In this document: positions 15,024-29,391 of the stretch, piece by piece | Position numbering within the stretch: the first letter of the stretch is position 1 | How the letters are laid out: the number at the start of each line of letters is the position of its first letter | Source: Catenulispora sp. | GTDB lineage: Bacteria; Actinomycetota; Actinomycetes; Streptomycetales; Catenulisporaceae | Reading direction: 5' to 3' | NCBI GenBank assembly: GCA_013361685.1 | Contig: JABFXP010000101.1 | Span: forward strand, 1 to 42,918 | DNA length: 42,918 nucleotides | The notes under the pieces: model-generated | The model's database searches: none | What the model was told of the DNA's origin: nothing | Seen by the model: the letters and a program-made list of their open reading frames with translations, nothing else | Translations under genes and position numbers: made by a program

Positions 15024-16658
15024 TCAACCCGTCGCGGCGAGCGGCTTCGCGGTCCGTCTGCCCCGCACTGCTGGTGCAGCTATCGGGCGGCGGGCGCCGT
15101 TGATCGCGGCGGCGATGGCCGCGGCTGCGGCGTGTTTCAGCTCGTCGTAGACCGAGGTGTAGATGTCCCGGGTGATGGCCGTGCCCGAGTGCCCGAGCAT
15201 GTCCGAGACGACCTTCAGATCCACCCCGGCGGCCAGCGCCAGCGACGCGGCACCGTGTCTCAAGTCGTGCAGCCGGATCGGGGGGAGCCCGGCCTCGCGG
15301 GCCAGCTGCTTGAACTGGGCGGTGACCCGGGCCGGGTGCAACCCCGCACCGACATCGGTCGTGAACACCAGCCCCGATTCGACCCACGCCGACGCGGCCC
15401 GCTCCCTTGCTTCCTGCTGCCACTCCCGCTGGGCTTGCAGCGCCTCGACGACCTGATCGGCCAGGCCCACGTCGCGTTCGCTGGCATCGGACTTCAGGTC
15501 GGTTTCCAGCACCTCCCAGCCGTTCTGCACCCGCTGCTTGGCCGGGGAGATCATTCGGGCATTGAGGTCCACATCGATCCACCGCAGCCCGCAGGCCTCC
15601 CCCCGGCGCAGCCCGGTACACGCGACCAGCAGATACAGCGCGTACCACTCATGACGCTGTGCCCGGTCCAGGAACGCCCGGGTCTGCTCGGCCGTCCACA
15701 CCATCACCGGCGACGGCTTGTTCCCTGTCGCCTGCCAGTACGCCACCCGCTCAGCCGTCCACACCAATGCCTTCGGCGACCGGCCCGAGCCGATCTCCGC
15801 CAGCGCCGCCACGTTCACCGTCACCAGCTGCTGGGCGCAGGCCGCCGACAGGGCCGAGCGCAGCGCAGACCGCAGCCGGAACCGGGTGGCCGCATGACAC
15901 GGCGGCCGGAACACCGGCAACGAAGCCAGCCGGTCCTTCGCCTTCCGCCACGCCACACGATCCCCACGCGCCCACGCAGCCTTCCGGGCCGCGTCCGCCT
16001 CCCGACGCGCCATGTTGTTCGCCTCCGCCGCCGCAGCCTCCCCGGCGATCGCGTCGAACATCGCCGTCACATGCGCCACCCGCAACCGGTCCAGAGGGAC
16101 CTGGCCCAGATGCGGGATCAGATAGGTCCGCACCTGCGAGGCATACATCCGCCGTGTGGACACGCTCAAGGCGGTCTTGCCGGCCAGCCACTGGGTCAGC
16201 CACTGCCCCACCGTCAGATGCTCAGTCACCGGCGCACCGGTCAGCACCGCCCGGCGCATCGCCTCGAACTCCGGCAGCCCCAGACCCGCCTTGTGATCGG
16301 CCCGGATCCGGGCGGCTATCTGCACCCTGAGCCCGGCCACCGCCTTCGGATCGTCACCGACCTCATCGGCGATCCCCAACAGCCGCCGCACCGCAGCAAG
16401 CTGGTCCTCAGCCTCCGCACGGGTGGCCAGACTCCCGAAAGACACCACCACCCGGCTGCCGGCGGCATCGGCGTGGTCGTACTGGAAATACCAGGTGCCA
16501 TGTCGCGGATTCCACCCGAAACCACGACGCAGCCTTGGGCACTTCACACCCAGACGCCGCACCACCGGCTTCCCGTCAGCGCCCGTCATCGGCAGACCAG
16601 TCGGCCCCAGCACCGGCTCCCGGCAACCACACTTCTTGAACACCGAACCCGCACTCAC
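15024..16658 (-). CDS. int: Tyrosine site-specific integrase of an integrative element
   Basis: A 544-residue tyrosine recombinase. An N-terminal Cys-containing AP2/SAM-like arm-binding region (KKCGCREPVLGP, WYFQYDHADAAG) and core-binding SAM-like domain (HLTVGQWLTQWLAGK) precede the catalytic domain at about 330-515. Catalytic residues are visible: Arg in TGLRRGEACGLRW, His-x-x-Arg in LHDLRHGAA, then LGHS and the nucleophile Tyr in ITRDIYTSV. The GTG start at 16658 overlaps the excisionase-like gene stop as GTGA. It is long for the family because of a ~60-residue Ala/Arg-rich insertion (residues ~205-265) between the domains. It likely acts on the tRNA-Lys core at 14630-14673. Confidence 0.92.
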   Translation of the reverse strand: MSAGSVFKKCGCREPVLGPTGLPMTGADGKPVVRRLGVKCPRLRRGFGWNPRHGTWYFQYDHADAAGSRVVVSFGSLATRAEAEDQLAAVRRLLGIADEVGDDPKAVAGLRVQIAARIRADHKAGLGLPEFEAMRRAVLTGAPVTEHLTVGQWLTQWLAGKTALSVSTRRMYASQVRTYLIPHLGQVPLDRLRVAHVTAMFDAIAGEAAAAEANNMARREADAARKAAWARGDRVAWRKAKDRLASLPVFRPPCHAATRFRLRSALRSALSAACAQQLVTVNVAALAEIGSGRSPKALVWTAERVAYWQATGNKPSPVMVWTAEQTRAFLDRAQRHEWYALYLLVACTGLRRGEACGLRWIDVDLNARMISPAKQRVQNGWEVLETDLKSDASERDVGLADQVVEALQAQREWQQEARERAASAWVESGLVFTTDVGAGLHPARVTAQFKQLAREAGLPPIRLHDLRHGAASLALAAGVDLKVVSDMLGHSGTAITRDIYTSVYDELKHAAAAAIAAAINGARRPIAAPAVRGRRTAKPLAATG

Positions 16659-17601: not shown

Positions 17602-17619
17602 GTTGAAGAAGTCTTCAAC
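17602..17619. promoter_or_regulatory. Palindromic operator before the first ArsR operon
   Basis: GTTGAAGA-AG-TCTTCAAC is a perfect 8-bp-arm palindrome (17602-17609 with 17612-17619), 71 bp before the small helical protein gene. TTGAA/TTCAA half-sites of this kind are bound by ArsR/SmtB repressors. A similar dyad precedes the second ArsR operon (25842-25867). Confidence 0.6.
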
Positions 17620-17689
17620 GAGGGACATGATGGAGGGCGCTCCGCCGGGTACGGCGGTCCTCGGCGTGGACGTCTGGAGGGAAGTGGTC

Positions 17690-17881
17690 GTGCAGCAGCT
17701 CGCGGCTACCGTCTCGGATACGGTCCGGCAGGCTCGGCGGTCTCTTGATGCCGCGCGTCTGGCTGGTGACGCCGCGCAGGTCGAGCTGCACCTGGCCCGC
17801 CTGACGTATCTGGCTGAACTGGCGTCCGAATACGGGATCAAGGTGTCCTGCCTAAGCTCTCGTGCCGCGATGGCGAGGTGA
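17690..17881 (+). CDS. Small helical protein coupled to ArsR (63 aa), paralogue 1
   Basis: GTG at 17690 follows GGAGGGA (17676-17682) at 7 nt, and the frame reads QQLAATVSDTVRQARRSL then DAARLAGDAAQVELHLARL, a predicted amphipathic helical hairpin with no Cys or signal. The reading frame extends upstream to 17600, but that would run through the operator palindrome, so the shorter form is preferred. Its TGA overlaps the ArsR GTG (GTGA). A similar small protein occupies the same place before the second ArsR gene (26001-26225), with the matching pattern of Ala/Leu heptads and ending (E-S/Y-G-x-K/E-V). No known family; probably a partner or modulator of the regulator. Confidence 0.55.
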   Translation: MQQLAATVSDTVRQARRSLDAARLAGDAAQVELHLARLTYLAELASEYGIKVSCLSSRAAMAR

Positions 17882-18228
17882 AATCGACGGTGGCGCAGGT
17901 TCCGCTGTATCAGGCCAAGGCGGAGTTCTTCCGGATGCTCGCGCATCCGGTGCGCATCCGAGTGCTGGAATTGCTGTGCGAGGGCCCCAAGCCGGTGCGC
18001 GACTTGCTGGCCGAGATCGAGATCGAGGCGTCGAGTCTGTCGCAGCAGTTGGGCGTGCTGCGCCGCTACGGGATCGTGACGGCGATCCGGGAGGGCTCGA
18101 CGGTGGTGTACGAGCTGGCCGGCCCGGACGTGTCGGAGCTGATGCGGGCCGCCCGCCGGATCCTCACCGAGCTCCTGGTCGGGCAGCGGGAGCTGCTGGC
18201 CGAGTTGCAGGCCGCCGATTCCTCTTAA
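17878..18228 (+). CDS. ArsR-family regulator, Rv0081-like, paralogue 1
   Basis: A 116-residue winged-helix repressor. It reads VPLYQAKAEFFRMLAHPVR then VRDLLAEIEIEASSLSQQLG and VLRRYGIVTAIREGSTVVYEL. This closely follows M. tuberculosis Rv0081 (PLYKLKAEFFKTLAHPARIRILELL…SSNLSQQLGVLRRAG as I recall it), a hypoxia-linked regulator also encoded just before a Hyc-like gene cluster. No Cys-x-Cys metal-binding motif is seen (a single Cys lies in LLCEGP), so the signal is unlikely to be sensed through a classical metal site. It is GTGA-coupled to the small helical gene and is 78 bp before the NuoB-like gene. Probably autoregulates through the palindrome at 17602-17619. Confidence 0.88.
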   Translation: MKSTVAQVPLYQAKAEFFRMLAHPVRIRVLELLCEGPKPVRDLLAEIEIEASSLSQQLGVLRRYGIVTAIREGSTVVYELAGPDVSELMRAARRILTELLVGQRELLAELQAADSS

Positions 18229-18305
18229 GGAACGGCGGCTTTTCTGATTTCGCCGCACGGCCTTCGCGCGCCGTGGGGCATGTCAATCCCCTGGTGAGGA
18301 TGGCG

Positions 18306-18785
18306 ATGAGAGGTCTGCTGAGAAAGATCCGTGCGCTGGGCCGGGTGGCCGAGCCCGCGCCGGCGCGCTCGGCCGGGCTGCCGCCGCAGCGGGCGCTGGC
18401 CGGGTCGGTGCAGGTGCGGTGTGTGGACGCGGGTTCGTGCAACGGCTGTGAGATCGAGATCGGTCAAGCGTTCGGGCCGGTGTATGACGCCGACCGGTAC
18501 GGGGTGCGGCTGGTGGCCTCGCCCCGGCATGCGGACGTGCTGGCGGTGACCGGCCCGGTGACGCGGAACATGGCGGTGGCGCTGAAGCGCACGTTCGCCG
18601 CGACGCCGGAGCCGCGGCTGGTGGTGGCGGTTGGGGACTGCGCGATCGGCTGCGGGGAGTTCGCCGGCGGTTACGGCGTGGTCGGCGGCGTGGATGAGGT
18701 GGTGCCGGTGGATCTGCGGGTTCCGGGATGCCCCCCGGAGCCGGAGGCGATCGTGGCGGCGTTGCGGCAGGTGACCGGGCGGTGA
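18306..18785 (+). CDS. NuoB/HyfI-like 4Fe-4S subunit of a membrane oxidoreductase
   Basis: A 159-residue subunit homologous to NuoB and HyfI/HycG. Cluster ligands are retained: SCNGCEIE near residue 42, VAVGDCAIGCGEF near residue 110, and VPGCPPEPEAI near residue 140. These hold the terminal iron-sulfur cluster in complex I-like enzymes. ATG at 18306 follows GGTGAGG at 6 nt; in-frame starts at 18294 and 18300 are alternatives. GTGA overlap leads into the antiporter-like subunit. First structural gene in the same position as M. tuberculosis Rv0082. Confidence 0.87.
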   Translation: MRGLLRKIRALGRVAEPAPARSAGLPPQRALAGSVQVRCVDAGSCNGCEIEIGQAFGPVYDADRYGVRLVASPRHADVLAVTGPVTRNMAVALKRTFAATPEPRLVVAVGDCAIGCGEFAGGYGVVGGVDEVVPVDLRVPGCPPEPEAIVAALRQVTGR

Positions 18786-20797
18786 ACTTGATCGGTGCCG
18801 GGCTGGCCTGTTCGGTCGGGCTCACCGGGGCGGCTTCGGCGGCCGGTCTTGCTCTGCCCCGCAGGTCCCGGGCGACGGGCGTTGGCGTGTTGACGGCTGC
18901 GCTGGGGGCGGCCGGGGTCGTTGTCGGAGTCGCGGCACTGTCCGGGCGGACGTTCAGTGCGTGTCTGCCGGACGTGCTGCCGCTGGCCGGGGTGTACCTG
19001 GGGGTCGATGCGCTGTCGGGATTGTTCATCACGGTCGCCGGGGCGGTGGTCCTGGCGGTCGCGGTGTACGGCATCGGCTACCACGGGCACGGCCATGACC
19101 CGGGCCGGGCAGCCTCCGCGCTGTTTCCGCTGTTCGCCTTGGCCATGCTGCTGGTGCCGGCGGCGGCGAGCGTGTCGACGTTCCTGGTGTGCTGGGAGCT
19201 GATGGCGGTCACGTCGCTGCTGCTGGTGCTGACCGAGCACCGTCGGCGCGAGCAGGTCCGCGAGGCCGGGCTGTGGTACGCGGTCATGACCCAGCTCGGG
19301 TTCGTCCTGATCCTTTTCGCCCTGGTGTGGCTGGCCGCCGCCGCGCACGGCGAGACCTTCGCGGCGATCCGTGCCGCCGCCGGCCACTTGTCGCCGGCGG
19401 TTCGCGGGACGGTGTTCGTGCTGGCCCTGGTCGGCTTCGGCTCGAAAGCGGGCATCGTGCCTTTGCACGCCTGGCTGCCGCGGGCCCATCCGGAGGCGCC
19501 GAGCCCGGTCTCGGCGCTGATGAGCGCGGTGATGGTGAACCTCGGCGTTTACGGTCTCATCCGGGTCGGGATGGGGCTGCTCGGTGGCGGTCCGCGCTGG
19601 TGGTGGCTGCTGGCGATGGCCGCCGGCGCCGTCTCCGCGGTCTACGGGATCTTGCAGGCTTCGGTGACGTCGGATCTGAAGCGTCTGCTGGCGTATTCGA
19701 CCACGGAGAACATGGGGCTGATCGTGCTCGGCGTCGGCGCGGCGGGCCTGTTCGGTTCGGCCGGGAAGCCGCAGCTTGCTGGGATCGCCTTGGCCGCGGC
19801 GCTGCTGCATGTGGTGACGCACAGCGCGTTCAAGGCCCTGCTGTTCGCCGGCGCCGGCTCGGTGCTGCGGGCCACCGGGACCCGGGATCTGGATGCGCTG
19901 GGCGGTCTTCGGCAGGCGATGCCGGTGACCACGGCGGCATTCGCGGTGGGCGCGCTGGGCGCGGCGGCGCTGCCGGGTGGGGCCGGGTTCGTCTCCGAGT
20001 GGCTGCTGTTGCAGTCGCTGATCCACGGGCTGGCGGTGCCGGGGATAGTGGTGTCGGTGGTGCTGCCGATCGCGGTGGCGGCGGTGGCGTTGTCGGCGGG
20101 GCTGGCGGTGGCGACCTTCGTGAAAGCCTTGGGCACCGGGTTCCTGGCCCGGCCGCGCAGCGACGGCGCAGCGCGGGCGGCGGAGTCGCCGGCCACGATG
20201 CTCGCCGCGATGCTGATGCTGGCCGGGGCCGCGACCGTGCTCGCTGTCGCTCCCGGTTTGGCGGGTTCGTGGCTGGCCCGAGCGGTCGCCGGCGTGACGC
20301 CGGTCGGTCCGGCGGTCGCCGATGCGGTGCGGACGAAGCTGACGGTACTCGGGTCCACGATGTCGCCACTGGTCGTGGTCGCGGGGACGGTCGGAGTGAC
20401 GGTGGTGCTGGCCGGGCTGCTGCGCCTGGTCGTCGGGGTGCGGCGGCGGGCCGTGCCGTTGTGGGATTGCGGTGCCGGTCCGCCGAGTGCGCGGATGCAG
20501 TACACGGCGACGTCGTTCGCCGAGCCGTTGCAGCGGGTCTTCGACGACGTGCTCGCCCCGGAGTCGGATGTCGACGTGACCCCGGTGGTGGAGTCGGCGT
20601 ATCTGGTGGAGCGGGTGTCCTATCACCGGGTTGTCCCGGATCGGATCGAGCACCGGCTGTACGCGCCGGTGCTGATCGCGGTGCGCTGGTGCGGGGAGCG
20701 GGCGCGGGCGCTGGCCAACGGCTCCGTGCACCGCTACCTCGGGTACGCCTTCTCCAGTCTGGTGATTCTGCTGGTGGCGCTGGCGGCGGTGAAATGA
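18782..20797 (+). CDS. hycC: Antiporter-like membrane subunit, HyfB/HycC-type
   Basis: A 671-residue polytopic protein of the Mrp-antiporter/NuoL-HyfB family with ~14-16 membrane helices. Proton-channel residues are kept: Glu in CWELMAVTSLLLV, Lys in GFGSKAGIVPLHAWLP, and the loop HPEAPSPVSALMSAVMVN, plus SDLKRLLAYSTTENMG. The GTG start at 18782 overlaps the NuoB-like stop; a longer frame upstream is a shadow. It probably moves protons or sodium ions linked to electron transfer in the complex. Counterpart of Rv0083 in gene order. Confidence 0.88.
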   Translation: MNLIGAGLACSVGLTGAASAAGLALPRRSRATGVGVLTAALGAAGVVVGVAALSGRTFSACLPDVLPLAGVYLGVDALSGLFITVAGAVVLAVAVYGIGYHGHGHDPGRAASALFPLFALAMLLVPAAASVSTFLVCWELMAVTSLLLVLTEHRRREQVREAGLWYAVMTQLGFVLILFALVWLAAAAHGETFAAIRAAAGHLSPAVRGTVFVLALVGFGSKAGIVPLHAWLPRAHPEAPSPVSALMSAVMVNLGVYGLIRVGMGLLGGGPRWWWLLAMAAGAVSAVYGILQASVTSDLKRLLAYSTTENMGLIVLGVGAAGLFGSAGKPQLAGIALAAALLHVVTHSAFKALLFAGAGSVLRATGTRDLDALGGLRQAMPVTTAAFAVGALGAAALPGGAGFVSEWLLLQSLIHGLAVPGIVVSVVLPIAVAAVALSAGLAVATFVKALGTGFLARPRSDGAARAAESPATMLAAMLMLAGAATVLAVAPGLAGSWLARAVAGVTPVGPAVADAVRTKLTVLGSTMSPLVVVAGTVGVTVVLAGLLRLVVGVRRRAVPLWDCGAGPPSARMQYTATSFAEPLQRVFDDVLAPESDVDVTPVVESAYLVERVSYHRVVPDRIEHRLYAPVLIAVRWCGERARALANGSVHRYLGYAFSSLVILLVALAAVK

Positions 20798-21771
20798 GCG
20801 GCACGATGGTGACGGGTACAACGACGACCGGGGCCGGGATCGCGGTCTCGGTGCTCCAGGTCGCGCTGACGGTGGTCGGTGCGCCGCTGCTGGTCGGGAT
20901 GATGCGGCAGGTGCGGGCCCGGATGGAGGGCCGGGCGGGGGCCGGGGTCGGGCAGCCGTGGCGGGATCTGCGCAAGCTGATGCGCAAGAAGCCTCTTGAC
21001 CCGCACGGCACCGGCCCGGTGTTCCGGACCGCGCCGCTGATCCAGGTTGCCACCACGCTGATGGTCGCCGCCGCGATCCCGTTCGTGTCGGTGGACACCG
21101 GCGTCGGCGAGGCCGCGGATCTGATCGCCGTGGTGGCGCTGCTGACCTTGGGGACGGCGGCGTTGGCGCTGGCCGGGCTGGATACCGGTACGGCGTTCGG
21201 CGGGATGGGTGCGAGCCGGGAGATGACGATCACCGCGCTGGCCGAGCCGACGGTGCTGATGGCCGCGTTCGCGCTGTCCACGCGGGTCGGCTCGACGAAC
21301 CTGCCGGCGATTGTGGACGCCGGGTTGAAGGACGCCGGCCGGGTCGTCTCGCCGGTCAGCGTGCTGGCGGCGTTCGCGCTGGCGGCGGTGGTGCTGGCCG
21401 AGGCCGGGCGGCTGCCGGTGGACAACCCGTCCACGCACCTGGAGCTGACCATGGTGCATGAGGCGATGGTGTTGGAGTATTCCGGGCCTGATCTGGCGCT
21501 GGTCGAGCTGGCGGCGGCGATGCGGCTGTCGGTGCTGCTGGGGCTGTGGTCGGCGCTGTTCCTGCCCTGGGGCACCGCCACGTCCACTGGTGTTCTCGCC
21601 GTTCTCGGCGCGACCGCGCTGTTCGTGGTGAAGGTCGGCGTGCTCGGCGCGGTGCTGGCGGCCGGCGAGGTGTTCATGGCCAAGCTGCGGCTGTTCCGGG
21701 TCCCGGAGCTGCTGGCCGGGTCGTTCCTGCTGGCCGTGCTCGCGGTCGCGGCGTCGTTCTTCCTGGAGTGA
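20794..21771 (+). CDS. hycD: NuoH/HyfC/HycD-like membrane subunit
   Basis: A 325-residue membrane protein of the complex I subunit 1 family. Key features are GQPWRDLRKLMRKKPLDPHG on the cytoplasmic side after the first helix, GTAFGGMGASREMTITALAEP, AEAGRLPVDNPSTHLELTM and VLEYSGPDLALVELAAAMR, all family signatures including conserved Glu/Asp residues at the quinone-side cavity. ATG at 20794 overlaps the preceding stop (ATGA). It forms the membrane anchor for the hydrophilic arm. Counterpart of Rv0084 (hycD). Confidence 0.9.
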   Translation: MSGTMVTGTTTTGAGIAVSVLQVALTVVGAPLLVGMMRQVRARMEGRAGAGVGQPWRDLRKLMRKKPLDPHGTGPVFRTAPLIQVATTLMVAAAIPFVSVDTGVGEAADLIAVVALLTLGTAALALAGLDTGTAFGGMGASREMTITALAEPTVLMAAFALSTRVGSTNLPAIVDAGLKDAGRVVSPVSVLAAFALAAVVLAEAGRLPVDNPSTHLELTMVHEAMVLEYSGPDLALVELAAAMRLSVLLGLWSALFLPWGTATSTGVLAVLGATALFVVKVGVLGAVLAAGEVFMAKLRLFRVPELLAGSFLLAVLAVAASFFLE

Positions 21772-21790
21772 GTCGAAGGCGGGTGAGGCT

Positions 21791-22450
21791 GTGAGCGGTG
21801 CGGCGAGTGTGCAGGTCCTGGATTTCGCCTGCGGGGTGTTCCTGCTGGCCGGGGTCGGGGCGCTGTGGCGCCGGGCGCTGTCGGCGGTGATCGGGCTGCT
21901 GGCGGTGCAGGGCGCGGCCCTGGCGGTGGTCGCCGCGGCGCTGGGCGCCGACGAGCATCATCCCGAGTTGTACGCGGTCGCCGCCGGGGTGGGCGTGCTG
22001 CGGGCCGGGGTGCTCCCCGGCCTGGCCCGGCGGGCCCTGGCCGCCTCCGGGGAGGATCGGGAGAGCGAGCCGCTGGTCAACGTCGCCTCGTCGCTGCTGG
22101 TCGCCGCCGCGCTGGTGCTGCTGGCCTACGCGGTGGCCCAGCCGCTGGCCCGGCTGGAGGGCTCTCAAGGCTCCCGTGCGCTGCCGGTCGGTCTGGCCTC
22201 GGTGCTGATCGGTCTGTTCATGCTGGTGGCCCGCCGCAAGGCCCTGTCCCAGGTGGCCGGGTTCCTGCTGCTGGACAACGGGATCACCGCGGTGGCGTTC
22301 CTGGCCGCGGCCGGGGTGCCGCTGCTGGTGGAGATCGGCGTGTCCTTCGACCTGCTGCTGGTGGTGCTCGTGCTGCGGGTGCTGACGGTGCGGATGCAAT
22401 CGGCGTTCGGCACCACCGACCTGGACGATCTGCGGGAGCTGCACGACTGA
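21791..22450 (+). CDS. hycP: HyfE/HycP-like membrane subunit
   Basis: A 219-residue membrane protein of the hydrogenase-4 component E type: six to seven hydrophobic segments, with LLLDNGITAVAFLAAA and the C-terminal signature LVVLVLRVLTVRMQSAFG then TTDLDDLRELHD typical of HyfE. The GTG at 21791 follows GGGTGAGG; this is the only non-overlapping junction (19 bp) within the structural genes. It corresponds to Rv0085 (hycP) in M. tuberculosis. HyfE aligns with the NuoK-like part of complex I and likely takes part in ion movement. Confidence 0.86.
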   Translation: MSGAASVQVLDFACGVFLLAGVGALWRRALSAVIGLLAVQGAALAVVAAALGADEHHPELYAVAAGVGVLRAGVLPGLARRALAASGEDRESEPLVNVASSLLVAAALVLLAYAVAQPLARLEGSQGSRALPVGLASVLIGLFMLVARRKALSQVAGFLLLDNGITAVAFLAAAGVPLLVEIGVSFDLLLVVLVLRVLTVRMQSAFGTTDLDDLRELHD

Positions 22451-23937
22451 TGAATACCCTGCTCCTGCTGGCCCCGATCGTCGTGCCGGCCGCCGCGAGC
22501 GGCGCGTACCTGGTCCTGGGCTGGCGCCGGTCCACGGCGCATCTGGGCACCGCCTCGGCCGCGCTGATCTTCGTCGTCGGCGTCATGCTTGCGGTGCGCA
22601 CTGTCCGCGACGGTGGTTTCGACGCCCTGTCCGGCTGGCTGTCCGGTGACCCGCTGGCCGGGTTCCTGCTGATGGTCATCGGCGCGGTCGCGGTCGTCGC
22701 CTGTGCCGCCAGCCGCGGCTACCTGGCCGGCGAACGCGCCGACGGCCACGGCGACGGGCCTGGCGAGCGCCGGTACGCCGTGTTGGTGCAGGCGTTCCTG
22801 GCGGCGATGGCGTGCGCGGTGGTGGCCGGGAATCTCGGCCTGATCTGGGTCGCGATCGAGGCCACGACGACGGTGACCGCGTTCCTGGTCGGGCACAAGC
22901 GCTCCCGCGCGGCGGTGGAGGCGGCGTGGAAGTACGTGGTGATCTGCTCGGTCGGCATCGCTCTGGCGCTGCTGGGCATCGTCATCCTGTACGCCGCGGC
23001 CCGGCACGCCGGGCTGTCGGAGGCCTCGGCGCTGGACTTCGACGCCCTGGCCGGCCACGCCCGCCGGCTGGACCCGGCGGCGACCCGGATGGCGATCGCG
23101 CTGATCGTCCTGGGCTTCGGGGCCAAGGCCGGGCTGGCGCCGCTGCACTCCTGGCTGCCCGACGCTCACAGCCAGGCCCCCGCGCCGGTCAGTGCCTTGA
23201 TGTCCGGGGTGCTGCTGTCGGTGTCGTTCTCGGTGATCCTGCGTACCAAGCAGGTCGCCGACGCGGCCCTGGGGGCCGGGTTCGTGCGGGCCCTGCTGCT
23301 GATCGCCGCCCTGGCCACGCTTACCGTGGCGGCGCTGCTGCTGATCGGGCAGCGCGACTTCAAACGCATGCTGGCCTACTCCTCCATGGAGCACATGGGA
23401 CTGATGGCCCTGGGCGCCGCGGCCGGGACCCCGCTGGCGCTGTCGGCGGTGCTGCTGCACATCGCCGGGCACGGCCTGGGCAAGGCGGTCGCGTTCTGCT
23501 CATCGGGGCAGATCCTGCACGCCGAGCACACCAGCCGGATCGAGGACGTGACGGGCCTGGCGGCGCGGGCCCCGGTTCTGGCCGGGACGTTCGGGGCGGC
23601 GGTGCTGGTACTGCTCGGGTTCCCGCCGTTCTCGCTGTTCGCCTCCGAGGTGGGTATCGCCCGCGCCGGGTTCGCCGCCGGCCTGGGCTGGCCGACCGCC
23701 GCCGCGTTCGCGCTGATGCTGGTGGCGTTCGCCGCGATCGGCGCGCACACGCTGCGGATGCTCGCCGGCCCCGACCCCCTGCACGGCAGCGCGCCCGGGA
23801 GCGGCGCGGCGCTGCGCGCTCAGGCTCCGCTGATCAGCGCTCTGCTGGTGGTGGCGGTCATCGGTGTCGCGGCCTGGCCGCTGGCTCACCTGCTGTCCGC
23901 CGCCGCCCCGGTCTCGATCCCCTGGAGCACCCGATGA
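22450..23937 (+). CDS. hycQ: Antiporter-like membrane subunit, HyfF/HycQ-type
   Basis: A 495-residue polytopic NuoN/NuoM-like subunit. Ion-channel residues are retained: Glu in GLIWVAIEATTTVTAFLV, Lys in GFGAKAGLAPLHSWLPD, and DAHSQAPAPVSALMSGV. RDFKRMLAYSSMEHMGLMAL is the usual broken-helix region. Start ATG at 22450 shares one base with the HycP stop (TGATG). With HycC it gives the complex two antiporter-like subunits, as in hydrogenase-4, so ion pumping is plausible. Counterpart of Rv0086 (hycQ). Confidence 0.88.
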   Translation: MNTLLLLAPIVVPAAASGAYLVLGWRRSTAHLGTASAALIFVVGVMLAVRTVRDGGFDALSGWLSGDPLAGFLLMVIGAVAVVACAASRGYLAGERADGHGDGPGERRYAVLVQAFLAAMACAVVAGNLGLIWVAIEATTTVTAFLVGHKRSRAAVEAAWKYVVICSVGIALALLGIVILYAAARHAGLSEASALDFDALAGHARRLDPAATRMAIALIVLGFGAKAGLAPLHSWLPDAHSQAPAPVSALMSGVLLSVSFSVILRTKQVADAALGAGFVRALLLIAALATLTVAALLLIGQRDFKRMLAYSSMEHMGLMALGAAAGTPLALSAVLLHIAGHGLGKAVAFCSSGQILHAEHTSRIEDVTGLAARAPVLAGTFGAAVLVLLGFPPFSLFASEVGIARAGFAAGLGWPTAAAFALMLVAFAAIGAHTLRMLAGPDPLHGSAPGSGAALRAQAPLISALLVVAVIGVAAWPLAHLLSAAAPVSIPWSTR

Positions 23938-25439
23938 GGATCATCGACGTCGGACCCGGCGACCTGGCGGCCACCGCCATCGGGCTACTGGACGCCGATC
24001 ACCGCCTGGCCCTGGTCGCGGCGCACCACGACCGGCCGCAGACGGCCGGCCGGGACGCGATGCGCGTGGTCTACCTGTTCCTAGGCCCGGGTGACTCACG
24101 CATCGAGCTGCGCCTGCGGCTGGACGGGCACCGCCCGCAGGTGCCGAGCCTGGCCGGGCTGTCGTTCCCGGCCGGGCGGTTCGAGCGCGAGATGCACGAC
24201 CTGTTCGGGATCCGCAGCCTCGGGCACCCGATGCCGCGCCGCCTGGTCCGGCACTACGGCTGGCCCACAGGCTGGCACCCGATGCGCCACGACGCCGGGC
24301 CCGCCCCGGAGTTCGGCGAAACGCTCGGGCTGTATCCGTTCCTGGAGGTGCAAGGGCCCGGCGTCTATGAGATCCCGGTCGGGCCGGTGCACGCCGGACT
24401 CATCGAACCCGGACACTTCCGGTTCTCGGTGGTCGGGGAGACCATCCTGAAGCTGAAGGCCCGCCTGTGGTTCGTCCACAAAGGCATCGAGAAACTCTTC
24501 GAAGGCAACCGGCCCGCGGACAAGCTCACCTTGGCGGAGAAGATCAGCGGTGATACCGCAGTCGGGCACGGCCTGGCCTTTGCCCGCGCCGTCGAGGACG
24601 CCTTGGGCATAAAGGTGCCCGCCGAGGCGCACACGATGCGCGCGATCCTGCTGGAGTTGGAGCGGCTCTACAACCACATCGGCGACATCGGGGCGCTGTG
24701 CAACGACGTCGGCCACGGCATCCTGCACCAGCACGCCGGCCGCGTGCGCGAACAGCTGCTGCGGATCAACGGCGAGGTCACCGGGCACCGGCTGCTGCGC
24801 GGCGGCATCGTCATCGGCGGCGCCCAGGTGATCTCGCTGCCGGATCCGGACCGGCTGTCCGCCCTGGCCGCCGACGTCGCCGAAACCGTCGACCTCGCCC
24901 TCGGACACACGGTGGTGCGCGACCGGTTCACCGGCACCGCCGTGCTCACCCTTGAACAGGCCCGAGACCTCGGGACGCTCGGCTACGTCGCCCGCGCATC
25001 GGGCCTGGATGTCGATGCCCGCCGCGACCATCCCGGCAGTGACCCGACCTCGGCGCCCCCGCTCGTGTTGCGCGAGGGCGGTGACGTCCTGGCACGCTTC
25101 GCTGTCCGGGCCGGGGAGTACCAGCAGTCCACCGAGCACATCAACACCCTCACCGCGCGGCTGCACGGTCCAGGGCGGCACGTCGCTGCCGAGCGCGGCG
25201 ACCCGGGAACCGGCCGCAGCGGGGTCCGGACCGGGGTCGGGATCGCCGAAGGGTGGCGCGGCACGATCGTGCACCGCGTCGAACTCACGCCGGACGGATC
25301 GCTGAGCCGGGTCAAGGTCGTCGACCCGTCGTTCTTCAACTGGCCGGCGCTGCCGGTGGCGCTGCGCGGGGCGATCGTGCCGGACTTCCCCCTGGTCAAC
25401 AAGAGCTTCAACCAGTCCTACGCCGGCAACGACCTGTGA
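23934..25439 (+). CDS. hycE: HyfG/HycE-like fused large subunit lacking NiFe ligands
   Basis: A 501-residue fusion of a NuoC-like domain (about 1-140; FERE-x-HDLFGI…HP pattern) and a NuoD/hydrogenase large-subunit-like domain (about 165-501; GPVHAGLIEPGHFRF, KLTLAEKISGDTAVGHG, LELERLYNHIGDIG). True NiFe large subunits have two CxxC motifs. Here the first is replaced by KISGDTAVGHG and the last by VDPSFFNWPALP; the only Cys is in GALCNDVG. The protein therefore cannot bind a NiFe centre in the known way. This matches the energy-converting hydrogenase-related (Ehr) group. Electron donor and acceptor are unknown. Counterpart of Rv0087. Confidence 0.88.
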   Translation: MRIIDVGPGDLAATAIGLLDADHRLALVAAHHDRPQTAGRDAMRVVYLFLGPGDSRIELRLRLDGHRPQVPSLAGLSFPAGRFEREMHDLFGIRSLGHPMPRRLVRHYGWPTGWHPMRHDAGPAPEFGETLGLYPFLEVQGPGVYEIPVGPVHAGLIEPGHFRFSVVGETILKLKARLWFVHKGIEKLFEGNRPADKLTLAEKISGDTAVGHGLAFARAVEDALGIKVPAEAHTMRAILLELERLYNHIGDIGALCNDVGHGILHQHAGRVREQLLRINGEVTGHRLLRGGIVIGGAQVISLPDPDRLSALAADVAETVDLALGHTVVRDRFTGTAVLTLEQARDLGTLGYVARASGLDVDARRDHPGSDPTSAPPLVLREGGDVLARFAVRAGEYQQSTEHINTLTARLHGPGRHVAAERGDPGTGRSGVRTGVGIAEGWRGTIVHRVELTPDGSLSRVKVVDPSFFNWPALPVALRGAIVPDFPLVNKSFNQSYAGNDL

Positions 25440-25445
25440 GAGGTG

Positions 25446-25814
25446 TCAGCCGAGGTCAGGCTTTGCGGACCACGCTGGACTTGAGTGCATCGCGCCCAAG
25501 CCGTCGATCTTGCAGTCGATGTCGTGGCCGTCCACACCGGCCACCAGGCGGATGTTGCGCACCTTCGTCCCCGCCTTGATCCCGGTGGGATGGCCCTTGA
25601 CCTTGAGCGCCTTGACCACCGTCACGTCGTCGCCGTCGGCCAGGACGTTGCCGACCGAGTCCCGGATCGCCCCGTCGGAAGCCGTGTCGGCCGTGTTCTC
25701 CGCGGAACCCGTCGCGGCCCACTCGTGGCCGCACTCGGGGCAGACCAGCAGGGCACCCATCTCGTAGGTGTAGGCGGATGAGCATTCGGGGCATGGTGGC
25801 AGGGTCTCGTTCAC
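25446..25814 (-). CDS. PhnA/YjdM-like zinc-ribbon protein with an altered C-terminus
   Basis: A 122-codon frame starting GTG 25814. It has an N-terminal zinc ribbon (CPECSSAYTYE…LLVCPECGHEW, residues 8-31) and the PhnA C-terminal barrel (DSVGNVLADGDDVTVVKALKVKG, TKVRNIRLV, DIDCKIDGLGAM). Family members end …GAMKLKSEFVKKA. Here the frame ends GAMHSSPAWSAKPDLG, but the +1 alternative frame at the same place reads LKSSVVRKA and a stop at 25456. Thus one base seems to be missing near 25486. It is convergent with hycE (6-bp gap). Function of the family is unclear; the phosphonate link is historical. Confidence 0.82.
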   Translation of the reverse strand: MNETLPPCPECSSAYTYEMGALLVCPECGHEWAATGSAENTADTASDGAIRDSVGNVLADGDDVTVVKALKVKGHPTGIKAGTKVRNIRLVAGVDGHDIDCKIDGLGAMHSSPAWSAKPDLG

Positions 25815-25841
25815 CTGCGTGATCCTACCTTGGACCACATG

Positions 25842-26000: not shown

Positions 26001-26225
26001 GTGAAGGACAGTGAGGACGACGTGAACGTGGCGCAGACCGACGAGTTCGCCGAGGCGCTGCTCGCGCGGGTTGCCGACGCCCGGCTGCGGCTGGCCGAGG
26101 CCGCCGCCACCGCCGACTCCCACGCGGTGGCCGAGGCCTTGGACGAGCTGGAGGACGCCCTGGGCCTGGCCCGGGAGTCCGGTGTCGAGGTACCGCCGAT
26201 CCAGCGCGACGGGACGGAGCAGTGA
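26001..26225 (+). CDS. Small helical protein coupled to ArsR (74 aa), paralogue 2
   Basis: An acidic, Ala/Leu-rich helical protein: DEFAEALLARVADARLRLAE then AAATADSHAVAEALDELEDA and LGLARESGVEV. The same heptad-like layout and end occur in the small gene before the first ArsR gene, so the two are probably paralogues. Its TGA overlaps the ArsR GTG (GTGA). The start is uncertain: GTG 25989, 26001 (after GGAAG) and 26022 (after GAGGAC) are all possible. No Cys, signal or membrane segment. Function unknown; the conserved coupling suggests it works with the regulator. Confidence 0.6.
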   Translation: MKDSEDDVNVAQTDEFAEALLARVADARLRLAEAAATADSHAVAEALDELEDALGLARESGVEVPPIQRDGTEQ

Positions 26226-26581
26226 GAAGCGTGACGGTTCCGCTGTACCAGGCCAAGGCCGAGTTCTTCCGGATGCTCGGACACCCGGTCCGGATCCGGG
26301 TGCTGGAGCTGTTGCAGGACGGGCCGATGCCGGTGCGCGACCTGCTCGCGGCGATCGAGGTCGAGCGCTCCAGCCTGTCGCAGCAGCTGGCTGTGTTGCG
26401 CCGATCCGGCATCGTCACCGCGGTCCGGGAGAGCGACACCGTCGTGTACTCCCTGGCCGGGCCGGACGTCGCCGAGCTGATGCGGGCCGCCCGCCGGATC
26501 CTCACCGAGCTGATCACCGGCCAGCAGGACCTGCTGGCCGAGCTGCGGGAAGCCGATGCGATAGCCGGAACCTCCGCGTGA
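26222..26581 (+). CDS. ArsR-family regulator, Rv0081-like, paralogue 2
   Basis: A 119-residue ArsR-type repressor about three-quarters identical by eye to the one at 17878-18228: both share VPLYQAKAEFFRML, HPVRIRVLELL, PVRDLLA, SSLSQQL, VLRRSGIVTAVRE and AELMRAARRILTELITGQQ. It has no Cys at all, so it cannot use a Cys-based metal site. It is GTGA-coupled both to the small helical gene upstream and to the SulP gene downstream. The recognition helix region (VERSSLSQQLAVLRRSG) differs little from paralogue 1, so the two could cross-bind each other's palindromes. Confidence 0.88.
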   Translation: MRSVTVPLYQAKAEFFRMLGHPVRIRVLELLQDGPMPVRDLLAAIEVERSSLSQQLAVLRRSGIVTAVRESDTVVYSLAGPDVAELMRAARRILTELITGQQDLLAELREADAIAGTSA

Positions 26582-28293
26582 GCACCGCGCTGATCGCCGG
26601 CCGGGTGAAGGACGTCCTGCCGAACGCCGCCACGCTGGGCACGATGCGCCGCTCGCCGCGCCGCGATCTGATCTCCGGGCTCACGGTGGCTGTCGTCGCG
26701 CTGCCGCTGGCGCTCGGGTTCGGCATCACCTCCGGTGCCGGAGCCCAGGCCGGACTGGTCACCGCCGTGGTCGCAGGCGCCCTGGCCGCGGTGTTCGGCG
26801 GCTCCAACCTCCAGGTCACCGGACCCACCGGGGCGATGACCGTGGTGCTGGTCCCGATCGTCCACAGCTACGGCATCGACGGCGTGATGACCGTCGGCCT
26901 GATGGCCGGGATCATCCTCGTGCTGCTGGCCCTGCTGCGCGCCGGCCGGGCCATGTCCTACGTCCCGGTGCCGGTCGTCGAGGGATTCACCCTCGGCATC
27001 GCCGGCGTCATCGGCCTTCAGCAGATCCCCGGCGCCCTCGGGGTGAAGACCCCGTCCGGCGACAACCCGGCCGTCGTCGCCGCCAAAGCCGTCGGCGATT
27101 TCGCCGCACACCCGCACGTCACGCCGATCGCCATCGCGATCGGCGTCGCCGCCGTGATGCTCCTGGGCGCCAGGCTGCGCCCCACCGTGCCGTTCTCGCT
27201 GCTGGCCGTGGTCGCCGCGACCGCGGCGGTGTGGGGTCTGGGTCTGTCGGCGGCGAGCATCGGACACCTGCCTTCGGGCTTGGCGGCTCCGTCGACGTCG
27301 TTCTTCCAAGCCTCGCACCTCGCTTCCCTGCTGCCCTCAGCGCTGGCGGTCGCGGCGCTGGCCGCGCTGGAGTCGCTGATGTCCGCTTCGGCGGCCGACG
27401 CGATGAGCGTGTCCGAGCGGCACGACTCCAACCGGGAGCTGTTCGGCCAGGGCCTGGCCAACATCGCTGCCCCGCTGTTCGGCGGCGTCGCCGCGACCGG
27501 CGCGATCGCCCGCACCGCCGTCAACGTCCGCACCGGCGCCGCGTCCCGGCTGGCCTCGCTCGTCCACGCCGCAGTCCTGGCGGTCATCGTGTTCGCCGCC
27601 GCGCCGTTGGTCGCCCACATCCCGCGTGCCGCCCTGGCCGGGGTGCTGATCGCCACCGCGGTGCGAATGGTCGAGGTCGGCTCCATCAAGGCCCTGGCCA
27701 GGGCCAGCCGCGGCGAGACCGCCATACTCGTCCTGACCGCGACCGTCACACTGGCCTCGACCCTGGTCAACGCCGTAGTCGTCGGCATGGTCGTGGCCGC
27801 CGCCATCGCCGTCACCAAGGTGTCGAAGGCGGCGCGGCTGGAGCAGGTGCCGCTGCACGCCGACCTGCCCCCGGCCGACCACCACGCCGAAGAGCAGGCC
27901 CTGCTCGGCGAGCACATCATCGCCTACCGCATCGACGGACCCCTGCTGTTCGCCGCCGCCCACCGGTTCCTGCTGGAGCTGACCGAAACCGCCGACGTGA
28001 AGGTGGTGATCCTGCGGATGTCGCGGATCAGCGTCATCGACTCCTCCGGCGCCGGGGTGCTGGCCGACGCTATCGACAAGCTGACCCGGCGCGGCGTGCT
28101 GGTCCTGGTCTCCGGCGTCCGCCCGGAGCACAGGCGGCCACTGGACGCGCTCGGGACACTCGACAGGCTGTGCGAGGCCGGGCACGTGTTCACCACCACC
28201 CCCGAGGCCATCGCGTTCGCGCACGCACACCTGTCCGGGACCGGGATCATTCCGGCCCCGCGCACAGGCGAGACGACCGGGGCGCGTGGGTGA
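26578..28293 (+). CDS. SulP-family anion transporter with STAS domain
   Basis: A 571-residue SLC26/SulP transporter. The membrane part (about 25-425) begins RRDLISGLTVAVVALPLALG and contains GGSNLQVTGPTGAMTVVLVP, the family signature, and SLMSASAADAMSVSERHDSN. A cytoplasmic STAS domain (about 445-555) has VVILRMSRISVIDSSGAGVL. Family substrates are sulfate, bicarbonate or dicarboxylates; sequence does not decide. No fused carbonic anhydrase is present. It is in the ArsR paralogue 2 operon (GTGA overlap), next to the Hyc-like complex, so control by the same signal is likely. Bicarbonate uptake alongside an ion-pumping complex is one possible link, as inference only. Confidence 0.88.
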   Translation: MSTALIAGRVKDVLPNAATLGTMRRSPRRDLISGLTVAVVALPLALGFGITSGAGAQAGLVTAVVAGALAAVFGGSNLQVTGPTGAMTVVLVPIVHSYGIDGVMTVGLMAGIILVLLALLRAGRAMSYVPVPVVEGFTLGIAGVIGLQQIPGALGVKTPSGDNPAVVAAKAVGDFAAHPHVTPIAIAIGVAAVMLLGARLRPTVPFSLLAVVAATAAVWGLGLSAASIGHLPSGLAAPSTSFFQASHLASLLPSALAVAALAALESLMSASAADAMSVSERHDSNRELFGQGLANIAAPLFGGVAATGAIARTAVNVRTGAASRLASLVHAAVLAVIVFAAAPLVAHIPRAALAGVLIATAVRMVEVGSIKALARASRGETAILVLTATVTLASTLVNAVVVGMVVAAAIAVTKVSKAARLEQVPLHADLPPADHHAEEQALLGEHIIAYRIDGPLLFAAAHRFLLELTETADVKVVILRMSRISVIDSSGAGVLADAIDKLTRRGVLVLVSGVRPEHRRPLDALGTLDRLCEAGHVFTTTPEAIAFAHAHLSGTGIIPAPRTGETTGARG

Positions 28294-28721
28294 TGACCGA
28301 AGACTTCGCGCAGATCCATCTTGCGCCGCTGCTCCGCGTCGAAGCGATGTACCTGCTCGGCGACACCGGCGTCGGCTTCGTGATCTGCGCGAAGGAGGGG
28401 ATGACGACCCGCCGCCCCGGCATCCACGCGGTCGAGCGCGGCGCGGTCGTCATCCTCGCCCTCATGACCGCCGAACTGGAGAAGCAGCTGGACGACGAGC
28501 TGCCGGTCACTTATCTCGTCGAGGCGGTCGATGAGGCCACCGGTGCCGGCTGGTCCGTCTCGGTTACCGGCCCTGTCGAGATCGTCGTCGATCCCGTGCT
28601 GCGCGCTCACTACCGGCGGACCCTGCCCGGGTTCGAGTCCGACCGAGGCGTCCGGGTCCTGCGGCTGATACCGCGGCTCGTCGACGGCCACCGCTTCCAC
28701 CGCATCTCCGCTGCCCTGTGA
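28293..28721 (+). CDS. Pyridoxamine 5'-phosphate oxidase-like flavin-binding protein
   Basis: A 142-residue PPOX-like split-barrel protein: LLRVEAMYLLGDTGVGFVIC at the N-terminus, ELPVTYLVEAVDEATGAGWS and VSVTGPVEIVVDPVLRAHY in the middle, ending LIPRLVDGHRFHRIS. The 'GWSV-x-VTG' strand is typical of actinobacterial PPOX-like proteins, which bind FMN or F420. ATG 28293 shares a base with the SulP stop (TGATG). In M. tuberculosis, Rv0080, adjacent to Rv0081, is also PPOX-like, so the association with this regulator type recurs. The substrate is unknown. Confidence 0.72.
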   Translation: MTEDFAQIHLAPLLRVEAMYLLGDTGVGFVICAKEGMTTRRPGIHAVERGAVVILALMTAELEKQLDDELPVTYLVEAVDEATGAGWSVSVTGPVEIVVDPVLRAHYRRTLPGFESDRGVRVLRLIPRLVDGHRFHRISAAL

Positions 28722-28746
28722 CACCCGACCCCGCGAGGAGGACCCG

Positions 28747-28914
28747 ATGGGACGAGGCCGAGCCAAAGCCAAACAGACGAAGATCGCCCGCGAGCTGAAG
28801 TACACCGACACCGGAACCGACCTGGCCCGCCTACAGGCCGAACTGAAAGCCGTGCAGACCCCCGAACAGCCCGGAACAGCGCAGGACACCGACGACATCG
28901 ACGGCTCCGCCTGA
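28747..28914 (+). CDS. DUF3073 small conserved actinobacterial protein
   Basis: A 55-residue protein starting MGRGRAKAKQTKIARELKY then TDTGTDLARLQAEL, matching the highly conserved N-terminus of DUF3073 proteins (MGRGRAKAKQTKVARELKY). The C-terminal part is acidic and probably disordered. A GAGGAGG ribosome-binding site lies just before the ATG. Function unknown; the family is nearly restricted to Actinomycetota, which supports the taxonomic call. Confidence 0.9.
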   Translation: MGRGRAKAKQTKIARELKYTDTGTDLARLQAELKAVQTPEQPGTAQDTDDIDGSA

Positions 28915-28953
28915 AACACCCGCCCGACCCCTCGACGAAGGAACCCCGCCGCC

Positions 28954-29391
28954 TTGTCACTGCAATGGCACTACCAATCCCGCCCCGACGTCGGCATCCT
29001 GGCCTTGGCCGGGAAACTCGGGGTCAAGGACGCGCCCATCCTGCACGGCGCGATCGGCTGGACCCTGTACCACGGAACCGGCCCGCTGATCCTCGACCTG
29101 AGCGCCCTGACGGCATGGACCAGCCTCGGCCAGGCCGCGGTCATCGAATCCGCGCTACGCCTGGCCAAGGCCCAGCGCCGACTGGAGATCGCCGCCCTTC
29201 CCACCGGGTACCCGGACCTCGTCACCGACACCGAACATGCCGCCATCCCCGTCCACACCGACGTCCTCAGCGCCCTGACCGCCAACCACGCGACGATCGA
29301 ACCCGCCGGAGAGCTCCGGGAATGGCGCAGCGCCGGCTGGCCCGACTCCGACCCGCGCACCCGACAGCCAGGCTCGGCAAGACGGCCGTGA
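28954..29391 (+). CDS. STAS-domain (anti-sigma factor antagonist-like) protein
   Basis: A 145-residue protein with a STAS-like fold: VGILALAGKLGVKDAPIL (beta strand and helix), TGPLILDLSALTAWTSLGQA, where the 'LDLS-x-L' strand precedes the phosphorylation-site region of SpoIIAA proteins (S in TSLGQA aligns with DSSG), and ESALRLAKAQRRLEIAAL. The C-terminal 30 residues are Pro/Arg-rich. The start is a TTG at 28954 with a weak GAAGGAA site upstream; the true start is uncertain. It may tune a stress sigma factor. It is in the SulP operon, close to DUF3073. Confidence 0.65.
   Translation: MSLQWHYQSRPDVGILALAGKLGVKDAPILHGAIGWTLYHGTGPLILDLSALTAWTSLGQAAVIESALRLAKAQRRLEIAALPTGYPDLVTDTEHAAIPVHTDVLSALTANHATIEPAGELREWRSAGWPDSDPRTRQPGSARRP

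Follow-up and report, generated by a model that had tools for sequence, protein, structure and literature searches.

What drives a hydrogenase-4-like membrane complex whose large subunit has lost its nickel ligands? The question is raised by a locus of the soil bacterium Catenulispora sp., which we analysed within a window of 42,918 nt (contig JABFXP010000101.1, forward strand). Pfam and NCBIfam searches of the window identified a complete six-gene Ehr complex, ehrS-A-B-C-D-L, preceded by an ArsR gene (Table 1). The original prediction had listed ArsR, NuoB-, HyfB-, HycD-, HycP-, HycQ- and HycE-like genes in this order; the seven open genes are indeed so arranged and occupy 17878-25439, while the start it gave, 17690, was set too early, as the ArsR gene begins at 17878. 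The NCBIfam scores of EhrA (hydrogenase 4 subunit B, 563.7 bits; cut-off 667) and EhrD (hydrogenase 4 subunit F, 342.5 bits) fell below the cut-offs. Among solved structures, the closest chains were 6cfw_J and then 7z0s_G for EhrS, 7z0s_C for EhrA and 7z0s_D for EhrB (7.5e-38). Because the six subunits match Pfam, NCBIfam or PDB entries (NCBIfam only for EhrC, which had no Pfam match), the locus very probably encodes an Ehr complex with an ion-translocating role.

Table 1 Features of the Ehr locus and its surroundings in the window
Feature	Position	Strand	Evidence
Palindrome GTTGAAGA-AG-TCTTCAAC ahead of the operon, putative ArsR operator	17602..17619		operator role proposed
Small ORF, 84 aa, overlaps ArsR1 start	17627..17881	+	40% identical stretch in G001 and L137; no Pfam match above cut-off
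ArsR1, ArsR-family regulator (Rv0081 position)	17878..18228	+	Pfam HTH_5 8.3e-10; NCBIfam ArsR/SmtB metalloregulator subfamily above cut-off
EhrS, NuoB/HycG-like, ligands C47 C50 C114 C144	18300..18785	+	Pfam Oxidored_q6 4.6e-29
EhrA, HyfB/HycC-like antiporter subunit	18782..20797	+	Pfam Proton_antipo_M 1.2e-51
EhrB, HycD/HyfC/NuoH-like	20794..21771	+	Pfam NADHdh 3.7e-38
EhrC, HyfE-like membrane subunit (HycP)	21791..22450	+	NCBIfam hydrogenase 4 membrane subunit 1e-23, below cut-off
EhrD, HyfF-like antiporter subunit (HycQ)	22450..23937	+	Pfam Proton_antipo_M 1.4e-50
EhrL, NuoCD/HycE-like large subunit, converted NiFe pocket	23934..25439	+	profile match and alignment to E. coli HycE
PhnA/YjdM-like zinc-ribbon gene between both modules, start uncertain	25446..25823	-	Pfam YjdM 1.9e-23
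ArsR2, paralogue of ArsR1, 81% identical	26222..26581	+	sequence comparison
SulP-family anion transporter with STAS domain	26578..28293	+	Pfam Sulfate_transp 1.4e-70, STAS 4.1e-17
Pyridox_ox_2 (PNPOx-like) protein, SulP module	28290..28721	+	Pfam PF12900 7.3e-7, barely above cut-off
STAS-like protein, SulP module	28954..29391	+	Pfam STAS_2 8.2e-4, below cut-off

For Ehr complexes (ehrABCDLS), the literature cites Coppi 2005 and Marreiros 2013. We found no difference between such complexes and the window, which shares their six subunits and the absence of NiFe motifs: ehrABCDLS occur together, and the group 4-homologous large subunit lacks RxCGxC and DPCxxC. The proposal that this was an undescribed energy-conserving system had to be given up, since the kind is already in print as Ehr (PMC4378227, PMC6349859, PMC10284858, PMC6688271, PMC6728331). 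The consulted excerpts of the first four papers assign this energy-converting-hydrogenase-related complex no reaction; PMC10284858 describes it in comammox Nitrospira, and PMC6728331 (2019) names the M. tuberculosis Rv0081-Rv0087 hyc genes an EHR complex, with its function given as undetermined. The anticipated identity of gene order with Rv0081-Rv0087 agrees with the gene table excerpted from PMC6901956 and with mycobacterial loci L070, L071, L073 and L075, M. tuberculosis itself lying outside our 80 named loci. The ArsR regulator is also common to both, and the window has an additional downstream ArsR2-SulP-PNPOx-STAS module. The locus is a further member of the known Ehr kind; the new part is the loss of EhrS ligands in its relatives, described below.

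Other relatives share parts of this architecture. The window encodes homologues of HycC, HycD, HycE and HycG and HyfE- and HyfF-like subunits, but unlike E. coli FHL-1/hydrogenase-4, to which HycB, HycF, HyfA, HyfH and HyfD belong, it lacks the CxxC pairs and the operon lacks counterparts of these five. Mbx/Mbs of Pyrococcus (6u8y), a group-4 relative which we take to function without a NiFe site, also contains antiporter subunits, and its L chain matched less well than FHL HycE (128.9 versus 351 bits). Subunit families are shared with complex I (NuoB, NuoCD, NuoH, NuoL/M/N), but the operon has neither an NADH module nor NuoI, and Pfam revealed no NuoE, F, G or I among its genes. The Mrp antiporter is an antiporter set without NuoB/NuoCD, in contrast to this operon, which includes EhrS and EhrL.

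We aligned EhrL with E. coli FHL HycE (7z0s_E; profile E-value 7.7e-104, 351 bits). The four Ni-ligating cysteines of a group 4 [NiFe] hydrogenase correspond to S205, T208, S495 and G498, so that all four ligand positions are changed, in agreement with the claim that the complex cannot be a NiFe hydrogenase. As foreseen, EhrL has a single cysteine, C256, and no CxxC. Of the two stretches proposed to replace the CxxC motifs, KISGDTAVGHG does occupy the former RxCGxCxxxH (C to S205, C to T208). VDPSFFNW lies elsewhere and was rejected as the second motif: its counterparts are ATYANW in HycE (7z0s_E) and the RDPSF stretch in the organism's own NuoD. DPCYSC aligns with NQSYAG, which places S495 and G498 in the C-terminal SFNQSYAGND. 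The resulting pocket comprises S205 G206 D207 T208 ... N493 S495 Y496 G498 N499 D500.

In a large-subunit tree of 109 rows (22 of 131 omitted as identical to the window, incomplete or redundant), each row carries either four Ni cysteines or none. The 85 Ehr rows, among which nine phyla are named, form a single group (SH-aLRT 95) adjoining Cys-bearing sisters; this group includes Nitrospira rows, in a tree that contains no author-labelled Ehr sequence. D207, D258, W441, D464, S495 and G498 are conserved in 85/85 Ehr rows, N493 in 84/85 and S205 in 81/85 (A in four); these counts omit incomplete rows (L110, L088, L029) and other Cys-less sister types (L032-L036, L050, L051) and take the Cys-bearing L122 and L133 as sisters. 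These eight residues discriminate Ehr from the Cys-bearing sisters and Hyc-type hydrogenases, and the corrected pocket map should help annotation to separate Ehr from genuine hydrogenases. Elsewhere in the genome we found HypD (C910) and another NiFe large subunit (C830), which the maturation genes may serve.

Carriers of Ehr include soil actinobacteria, nitrifiers, methanotrophs and mycobacteria, and all six genes are present in 57 of the 80 named loci, many of the others being interrupted by contig ends. Ehr is absent from 34 of 41 related genomes and is therefore dispensable; some Streptomyces-group genomes hold Ehr remnants. Such remnants, together with the lost NiFe ligands, are what a decayed hydrogenase without function might leave. 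By sequence comparison, the Ehr genes are evidently under purifying selection, with dN/dS of 0.10-0.18 against a same-genus copy (G001) and 0.16-0.33 against a second copy in the same genome (contig C400). With dN/dS far below 1, a pocket fixed over the nine named phyla and that second copy, decay is very unlikely, and we rejected it. The least credible reading is the formate hydrogenlyase of the M. tuberculosis annotation: among solved structures, EhrL, EhrA and EhrB come closest to E. coli FHL subunits, but the Ni site is missing and an operon-level search found neither the formate dehydrogenase nor the ferredoxin subunits of that enzyme.

The membrane arm appears well preserved. Consistent with the prediction that the antiporter Glu/Lys residues are kept, EhrA has E140/K223/K301/K352/E407 and EhrD has E138/K227/K306/K346/E401. 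Loss of charged residues in orthologues, which had been named as evidence against the prediction, was looked for, and the complete five-residue set proved to be retained in 69/73 EhrA and 66/79 EhrD rows; EhrB E152, E204, D211, E218, E224 and E229 are retained in 69/70 rows, the remaining row having an unknown residue (matches below 60% of the query, L122 and L133 were excluded). The expectation that ion movement is intact is borne out at the level of these residues. Ehr probably assembles in the membrane and pumps ions. According to our model, its four hydrogenase-4-type membrane proteins (EhrA, B, C and D) would provide two antiporter-like proton/cation paths and an acidic EhrB channel, with EhrL and EhrS at the cytoplasmic end. 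The former NiFe pocket would have become a conserved carboxylate/hydroxyl pocket with no Cys-held Ni and no H2 production, and turnover or binding there would drive, or be driven by, ions moving through EhrB, EhrA and EhrD.

The nature of that turnover is the central question. One reading, with about an even chance of being correct, is a redox-driven pump in which EhrS receives electrons from a docking soluble donor (ferredoxin, F420H2- or flavin-linked) and its single [4Fe-4S] cluster hands them to a non-proton acceptor in the converted pocket, possibly menaquinone or another small molecule, while ions are pumped. Mbh, Mbx and complex I, homologous by our computation, set the functional precedent of redox-driven ion pumping. 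In agreement with both this reading and the original prediction, EhrS of the window retains all four iron-sulfur ligands (C47, C50, C114 and C144), as do 101 of 126 rows (one CC-shifted row included; L195, equal to the window, left out). An FDH-Ehr complex has also been proposed for other phyla, in the portion of PMC6349859 consulted. Against a redox-driven pump, the operon genes (ORF list and Pfam) include no ferredoxin, HycF, NuoI or other electron-input subunit. Families recurring beside at least five loci, each labelled from one member, are ArsR, SulP, histidine kinases, ABC, short-chain dehydrogenases, CBS proteins and a methyltransferase, with no obvious recurrent redox partner. In the alignment, the positions of Nqo4 His38 and Tyr87, presumably the quinone ligands of complex I, are I157 and G206 in EhrL; a complex-I-like quinone site is therefore unsupported and was rejected.

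The remaining 25 of the 126 EhrS rows have altered [4Fe-4S] ligands. In some members of two Ehr lineages, Microbacteriaceae and a Patescibacteria/f29 group, three of the four are gone. Microbacteriaceae (f10, probably of this family from its near-identity with named Cryobacterium rows, some of which may duplicate other genomes in the set) show CCCS or CCCN in some rows and A/G-C-A-S in others, and 12 of their 15 rows have lost a single ligand; in Patescibacteria and one family of the window's phylum the ligands are replaced mostly by Asp. Some records coincide in sequence (L088 and L211, probably one record; L159 and L219; L160 and L222). L169, L170, L172, L163 and L164 represent sister families, counted within the 25 but outside the clean cases; total cofactor loss in L169 and L170 was dropped, as these and L172 have, by eye, a ferredoxin-like N-terminal stretch. 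A scan beside ligand-less Ehr loci gave 20 CxxCxxC stretches, five of which were read out; by eye, they seem to lie out of frame or antisense. Ligand-less lineages nonetheless retain their ion-path residues and, as a check of eight rows showed, 13-15 of the 15 residues of the pocket; three Microbacteriaceae pairs gave dN/dS values of 0.02-0.19. The claim that electron transfer looks intact accordingly holds for the EhrS ligands of this window only. The ligand loss is new here; the consulted excerpts of the Ehr papers cited mention none, although it may already be published.

Since these relatives lose EhrS ligands while keeping the pocket, the ion paths and a low dN/dS, Ehr may work without redox chemistry. 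On this view the pocket would bind or convert a ligand outside redox chemistry, for which an anion brought in by SulP is one candidate, and any cluster in EhrS would have a structural or sensing part. We hold this redox-free translocation to be a serious but somewhat doubtful reading, and the same tentativeness applies to viewing Ehr as a redox-free branch of the complex I/hydrogenase superfamily in which the last [4Fe-4S] cluster is dispensable. SulP and ArsR also adjoin an Ehr locus with A/G-C-A-S-type EhrS (L213), which speaks for the redox-free reading, but the link of SulP with Ehr in relatives is one of position, and most loci have no SulP alongside. Redox-free translocation also has to be squared with the ligands kept in most rows and with the single losses in Microbacteriaceae, where Ser or Asn perhaps substitutes; function may have changed in the ligand-losing lineages, and the absence of a nearby ferredoxin was judged by eye from the CxxCxxC scan. 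A driving reaction of another kind, neither cluster-dependent redox nor redox-free, is improbable. Natural Ehr complexes without cluster ligands nevertheless move the question from what is reduced to whether there is any redox at all; if redox-free translocation is true, a complex-I-like machine lacking a redox centre would mean that chemistry of another kind can operate the ion-pumping arm.

The surroundings bear on regulation. The palindrome GTTGAAGA-AG-TCTTCAAC has no other match in the window at up to 3 mismatches (0.01 expected) and was not found before ArsR2; by eye, a similar sequence precedes the second Ehr copy, that of contig C400. OsdR-type sites gave 37 weak matches in the window versus 52.9 expected by chance, and no tRNA lies near the integrase within it. 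The SulP protein scored below both NCBIfam cut-offs (DauA 321.5 bits, BicA 243.4 bits). The Pyridox_ox_2 gene follows SulP in L110, L137, L152, L155 and L157, and a STAS-like gene holds the equivalent position in L110, L137, L150-L152, L154, L155 and L157. The ArsR-SulP module and Ehr-type ArsR persist in 5/5 Ehr-less Streptomyces-group genomes examined. Given the M. tuberculosis regulator, Ehr may be used at low oxygen or in dormancy, a role also suggested by DevR-type neighbours at two Streptomyces-group Ehr loci.

The gene order put forward in the original prediction (ArsR, NuoB-like, HyfB, HycD, HycP, HycQ, HycE) is present as seven open genes, ArsR1 followed by ehrS-A-B-C-D-L, with EhrC (HycP) HyfE-like and EhrD (HycQ) HyfF-like. 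The accompanying idea of an undescribed energy-conserving system is not supported: Ehr, the energy-converting-hydrogenase-related complex, is already in print, and the window locus is one more member of this known kind. The names ehrABCDLS are in use (PMC6688271), Sulfobacillus has six syntenic nuoH/nuoL/HyfE/HyfB-type genes that lack NiFe motifs and are likened to Ehr (PMC4378227), and comammox Nitrospira has an Ehr without CxxC motifs (PMC10284858), function being given as unknown in the latter two. Pfam recognized ArsR, Oxidored_q6, Proton_antipo_M, NADHdh and Proton_antipo_M in the operon proteins, with EhrL matching Complex1_30kDa, Complex1_49kDa and part of NiFeSe_Hases, and the HyfE-like EhrC remaining without a match. 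The nearest NCBIfam families of the HyfB-, HyfE- and HyfF-like proteins are hydrogenase 4 subunits, every score falling below the curated cut-off. The closest solved chains of EhrL, EhrA and EhrB belong to E. coli formate hydrogenlyase (7z0s_E, 7z0s_C and 7z0s_D), that of EhrS is 6cfw_J followed by 7z0s_G, and that of EhrD is 6u8y_H. Neither a ferredoxin-type subunit nor a formate dehydrogenase gene was found within the operon. A small ORF overlaps the ArsR1 start, with a similar stretch before ArsR1 in the related genome G001 (locus L137); a phage-type integrase lies just upstream of the locus, and the window contains no tRNA.

Coordinates of Ehr loci, remnants and neighbouring features
Feature	Sequence	Positions	Strand
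Phage-type integrase	window	15024-16658	-
Small ORF	window	17627-17881	
ArsR, NuoB-, HyfB-, HycD-, HyfE-, HyfF-, HycE-like genes	window	17878-25439	+
ArsR2-SulP-PNPOx-STAS module, after PhnA/YjdM, downstream of Ehr	window	26222-29391	
Second Ehr copy, part	G000:C400	24852-26057	
Second Ehr copy, part	G000:C590	47-259	
EhrL of Candidatus Mycobacterium methanotrophicum, match split into several pieces at 3' end	L056	10001-12077	
EhrS fragment beside ArsR1	L154	2907-3156	
EhrS fragment beside ArsR1	L151	10368-10564	

A scan of named genomes yielded at least 580 confirmed relatives, of which the best 80 were analyzed. Represented among these 80 are Mycobacterium, Streptomyces, Nonomuraea, Cryobacterium, Acidimicrobiaceae, Acidobacteriota, Rokubacteria, Nitrospira, Methylobacter, Verrucomicrobiota and Patescibacteria; 57 have the complete six-gene set. 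Among the 59 of them in which EhrS, EhrA and EhrL were all seen, EhrS stands first in 39 and last in 20, EhrS-first loci occurring in Actinomycetota, Rokubacteria, Patescibacteria and an unplaced bin. Ehr is carried by 7/41 genomes comprising the window's own and 40 relatives. The window's genome has two copies, the second diverged, split over two contigs and followed, like the window's, by ArsR and SulP; it also encodes HypD and another NiFe large subunit.

Profile alignment of EhrL with 7z0s_E paired the RISGDTAVGH stretch with RVCGICGFAH and SFNQSYAGND with SLDPCYSCTD, and the Ni-ligand positions are therefore S205, T208, S495 and G498. VDPSFFNW, originally taken for the former second CxxC, aligned instead with ATYANW of 7z0s_E and the RDPSF stretch of NuoD and thus never was that site; the single Cys claimed for the protein is indeed the only one (C256). 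Eight positions set 85 Ehr rows apart from seven Cys-bearing sisters and six Hyc-type rows: D207, D258, W441, D464, S495 and G498 are present in all 85, N493 in 84, and position 205 is S in 81 and A in 4. The aligned residues indicate that the pocket is fixed, not decayed. dN/dS for the six ehr genes was 0.10-0.18 against G001 and 0.16-0.33 against the second copy in the window's genome. In a tree of 109 large subunits the 85 Ehr rows form one group (SH-aLRT 95), whose neighbours include seven rows with all four Cys; the joint placing of the two Cys-bearing sister sets is unsure, because long branches meet between them (a program warning). Sister large subunits at L122, L133, L039-L042 and L049 combine an Ehr-like backbone and four retained Cys with ELCYxC replacing DPCxxC, and are possibly unusual NiFe hydrogenases.

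As predicted, the antiporter Glu/Lys residues are kept, with EhrA E140, K223, K301, K352 and E407 conserved in 69/73 rows and EhrD E138, K227, K306, K346 and E401 in 66/79 (another five have R at K306); six acidic residues of EhrB are conserved in 69/70. The NuoB-like Fe-S ligands are likewise present in the window EhrS (C47, C50, C114 and C144). The sequence data support Ehr being an ion-translocating complex with a cytoplasmic pocket that has given up hydrogen chemistry. In the window, electrons could still reach the converted pocket through the single EhrS cluster, a reading we regard as evenly balanced.

A redox-free mechanism is a serious rival, if a somewhat less than even one, because relatives drop cluster ligands yet retain the pocket and ion paths. 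The [4Fe-4S] ligands are changed in 25/126 EhrS rows (L097, reading PNCC, was scored intact and is extra to these), and the EhrS tree, with few columns and many unresolved forks, requires at least four changes. Two clean cases lie within Ehr: Patescibacteria together with f29, an unnamed family of the window's phylum, and Microbacteriaceae. Five of the 25 changed rows were left out of these cases because they belong to sister families, three of them (L169, L170 and L172) with a ferredoxin-like N-terminal stretch on EhrS; all four ligands are gone in L169 and L170.

In the first case, the ligand positions read T/D-C-D-D in Patescibacteria (L107, L119), in an unplaced bin (L123) and in 6/6 close EhrS proteins (75-100% identity to the query) from the 19 f29 genomes searched. 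Sister-type EhrS-like rows of f29 read CCCN, CCCN and CCCC; its NuoB-type rows, so labelled by us from a tandem-Cys motif, retain the cysteines in 10/11 (the eleventh is truncated), which argues against general ligand loss or assembly error. In Microbacteriaceae, where 12/398 genomes matched at 1e-30, the ligands are changed in 11 and all four are present in L212; 12 EhrS rows are CCCS or CCCN and three, representing two distinct sequences, A/G-C-A-S. dN/dS in three Microbacteriaceae pairs was 0.02-0.19. Since a cluster may tolerate a single Ser or Asn among its ligands, the weight rests on losses of three of the four. Nine ligand-changed loci (L085, L086, L088, L092, L107, L119, L123, L159 and L160) retain the ion-path residues of EhrA and EhrB, apart from one unknown residue in L119, and those of EhrD, except for E401 to K in L119 and L123. 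Among eight EhrL rows checked from these lineages, seven keep 15/15 window pocket residues and L092 13/15. A CxxCxxC scan near 15 Ehr loci returned 20 stretches, none judged by eye to be a ferredoxin. Three of four EhrS ligands are replaced within Ehr operons at L107, L119, L123 and L219-L224 (mostly by Asp) and at L088, L210 and L211 (by Ala/Gly/Ser). EhrL of L213 has T at position 205.

SulP at least 65% identical to the window's lies within ~12 kb of 5/8 Ehr copies in the 41 genomes (window, C590, G001, G003 and G020), G003 being identical to the window and hence not independent; G011, G015 and G033 gave no SulP match at 1e-40 anywhere in the genome. Among the best 80 of at least 580 named loci, many with short flanks, SulP adjoins Ehr in 7 and was not seen in 73; identity is 62-67% in L110 and L114 and 24-36% in L115, L117, L118, L125 and L129. 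SulP also adjoins Ehr in L213. This gene position hints that the pocket ligand may be an anion, for instance bicarbonate or some dicarboxylate. By NCBIfam, the window SulP is nearest DauA, then BicA, below the cut-off for each. The ArsR2-SulP-PNPOx-STAS module, noted in the window, L158, L137, L155 and L213, is linked to Ehr; it also occurs in five related genomes that lack Ehr but keep the Ehr-type ArsR1, PNPOx and STAS not being seen in all.

Nine related genomes have SulP (at least 65%) without Ehr. In 5/5 inspected, an ArsR1 of the Ehr type (82-95% identity to the G020 protein) lies near SulP, and in two of them EhrS fragments lie beside it, so Ehr has probably been lost from these five with its regulator left behind. 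L151 also encodes a response regulator of LuxR type together with a CBS protein. CBS proteins occur in DevR/OsdR dormancy regulons. L154 has a nitroreductase and a PNPOx protein, both of them kinds found in those regulons (PMC5069765); the M. tuberculosis regulator Rv0081 is linked to hypoxia (PMC6901956). Four of the 80 named loci (L058, L059, L066 and L091; best 80 of at least 580) have a GTP-type PEP carboxykinase in the vicinity of Ehr. Upstream of ArsR1 in L138, L140 and L141 stands the palindrome ACTTGCTAA-NN-TTAGCAAGT, in variant form in L141, possibly an ArsR operator of another type.
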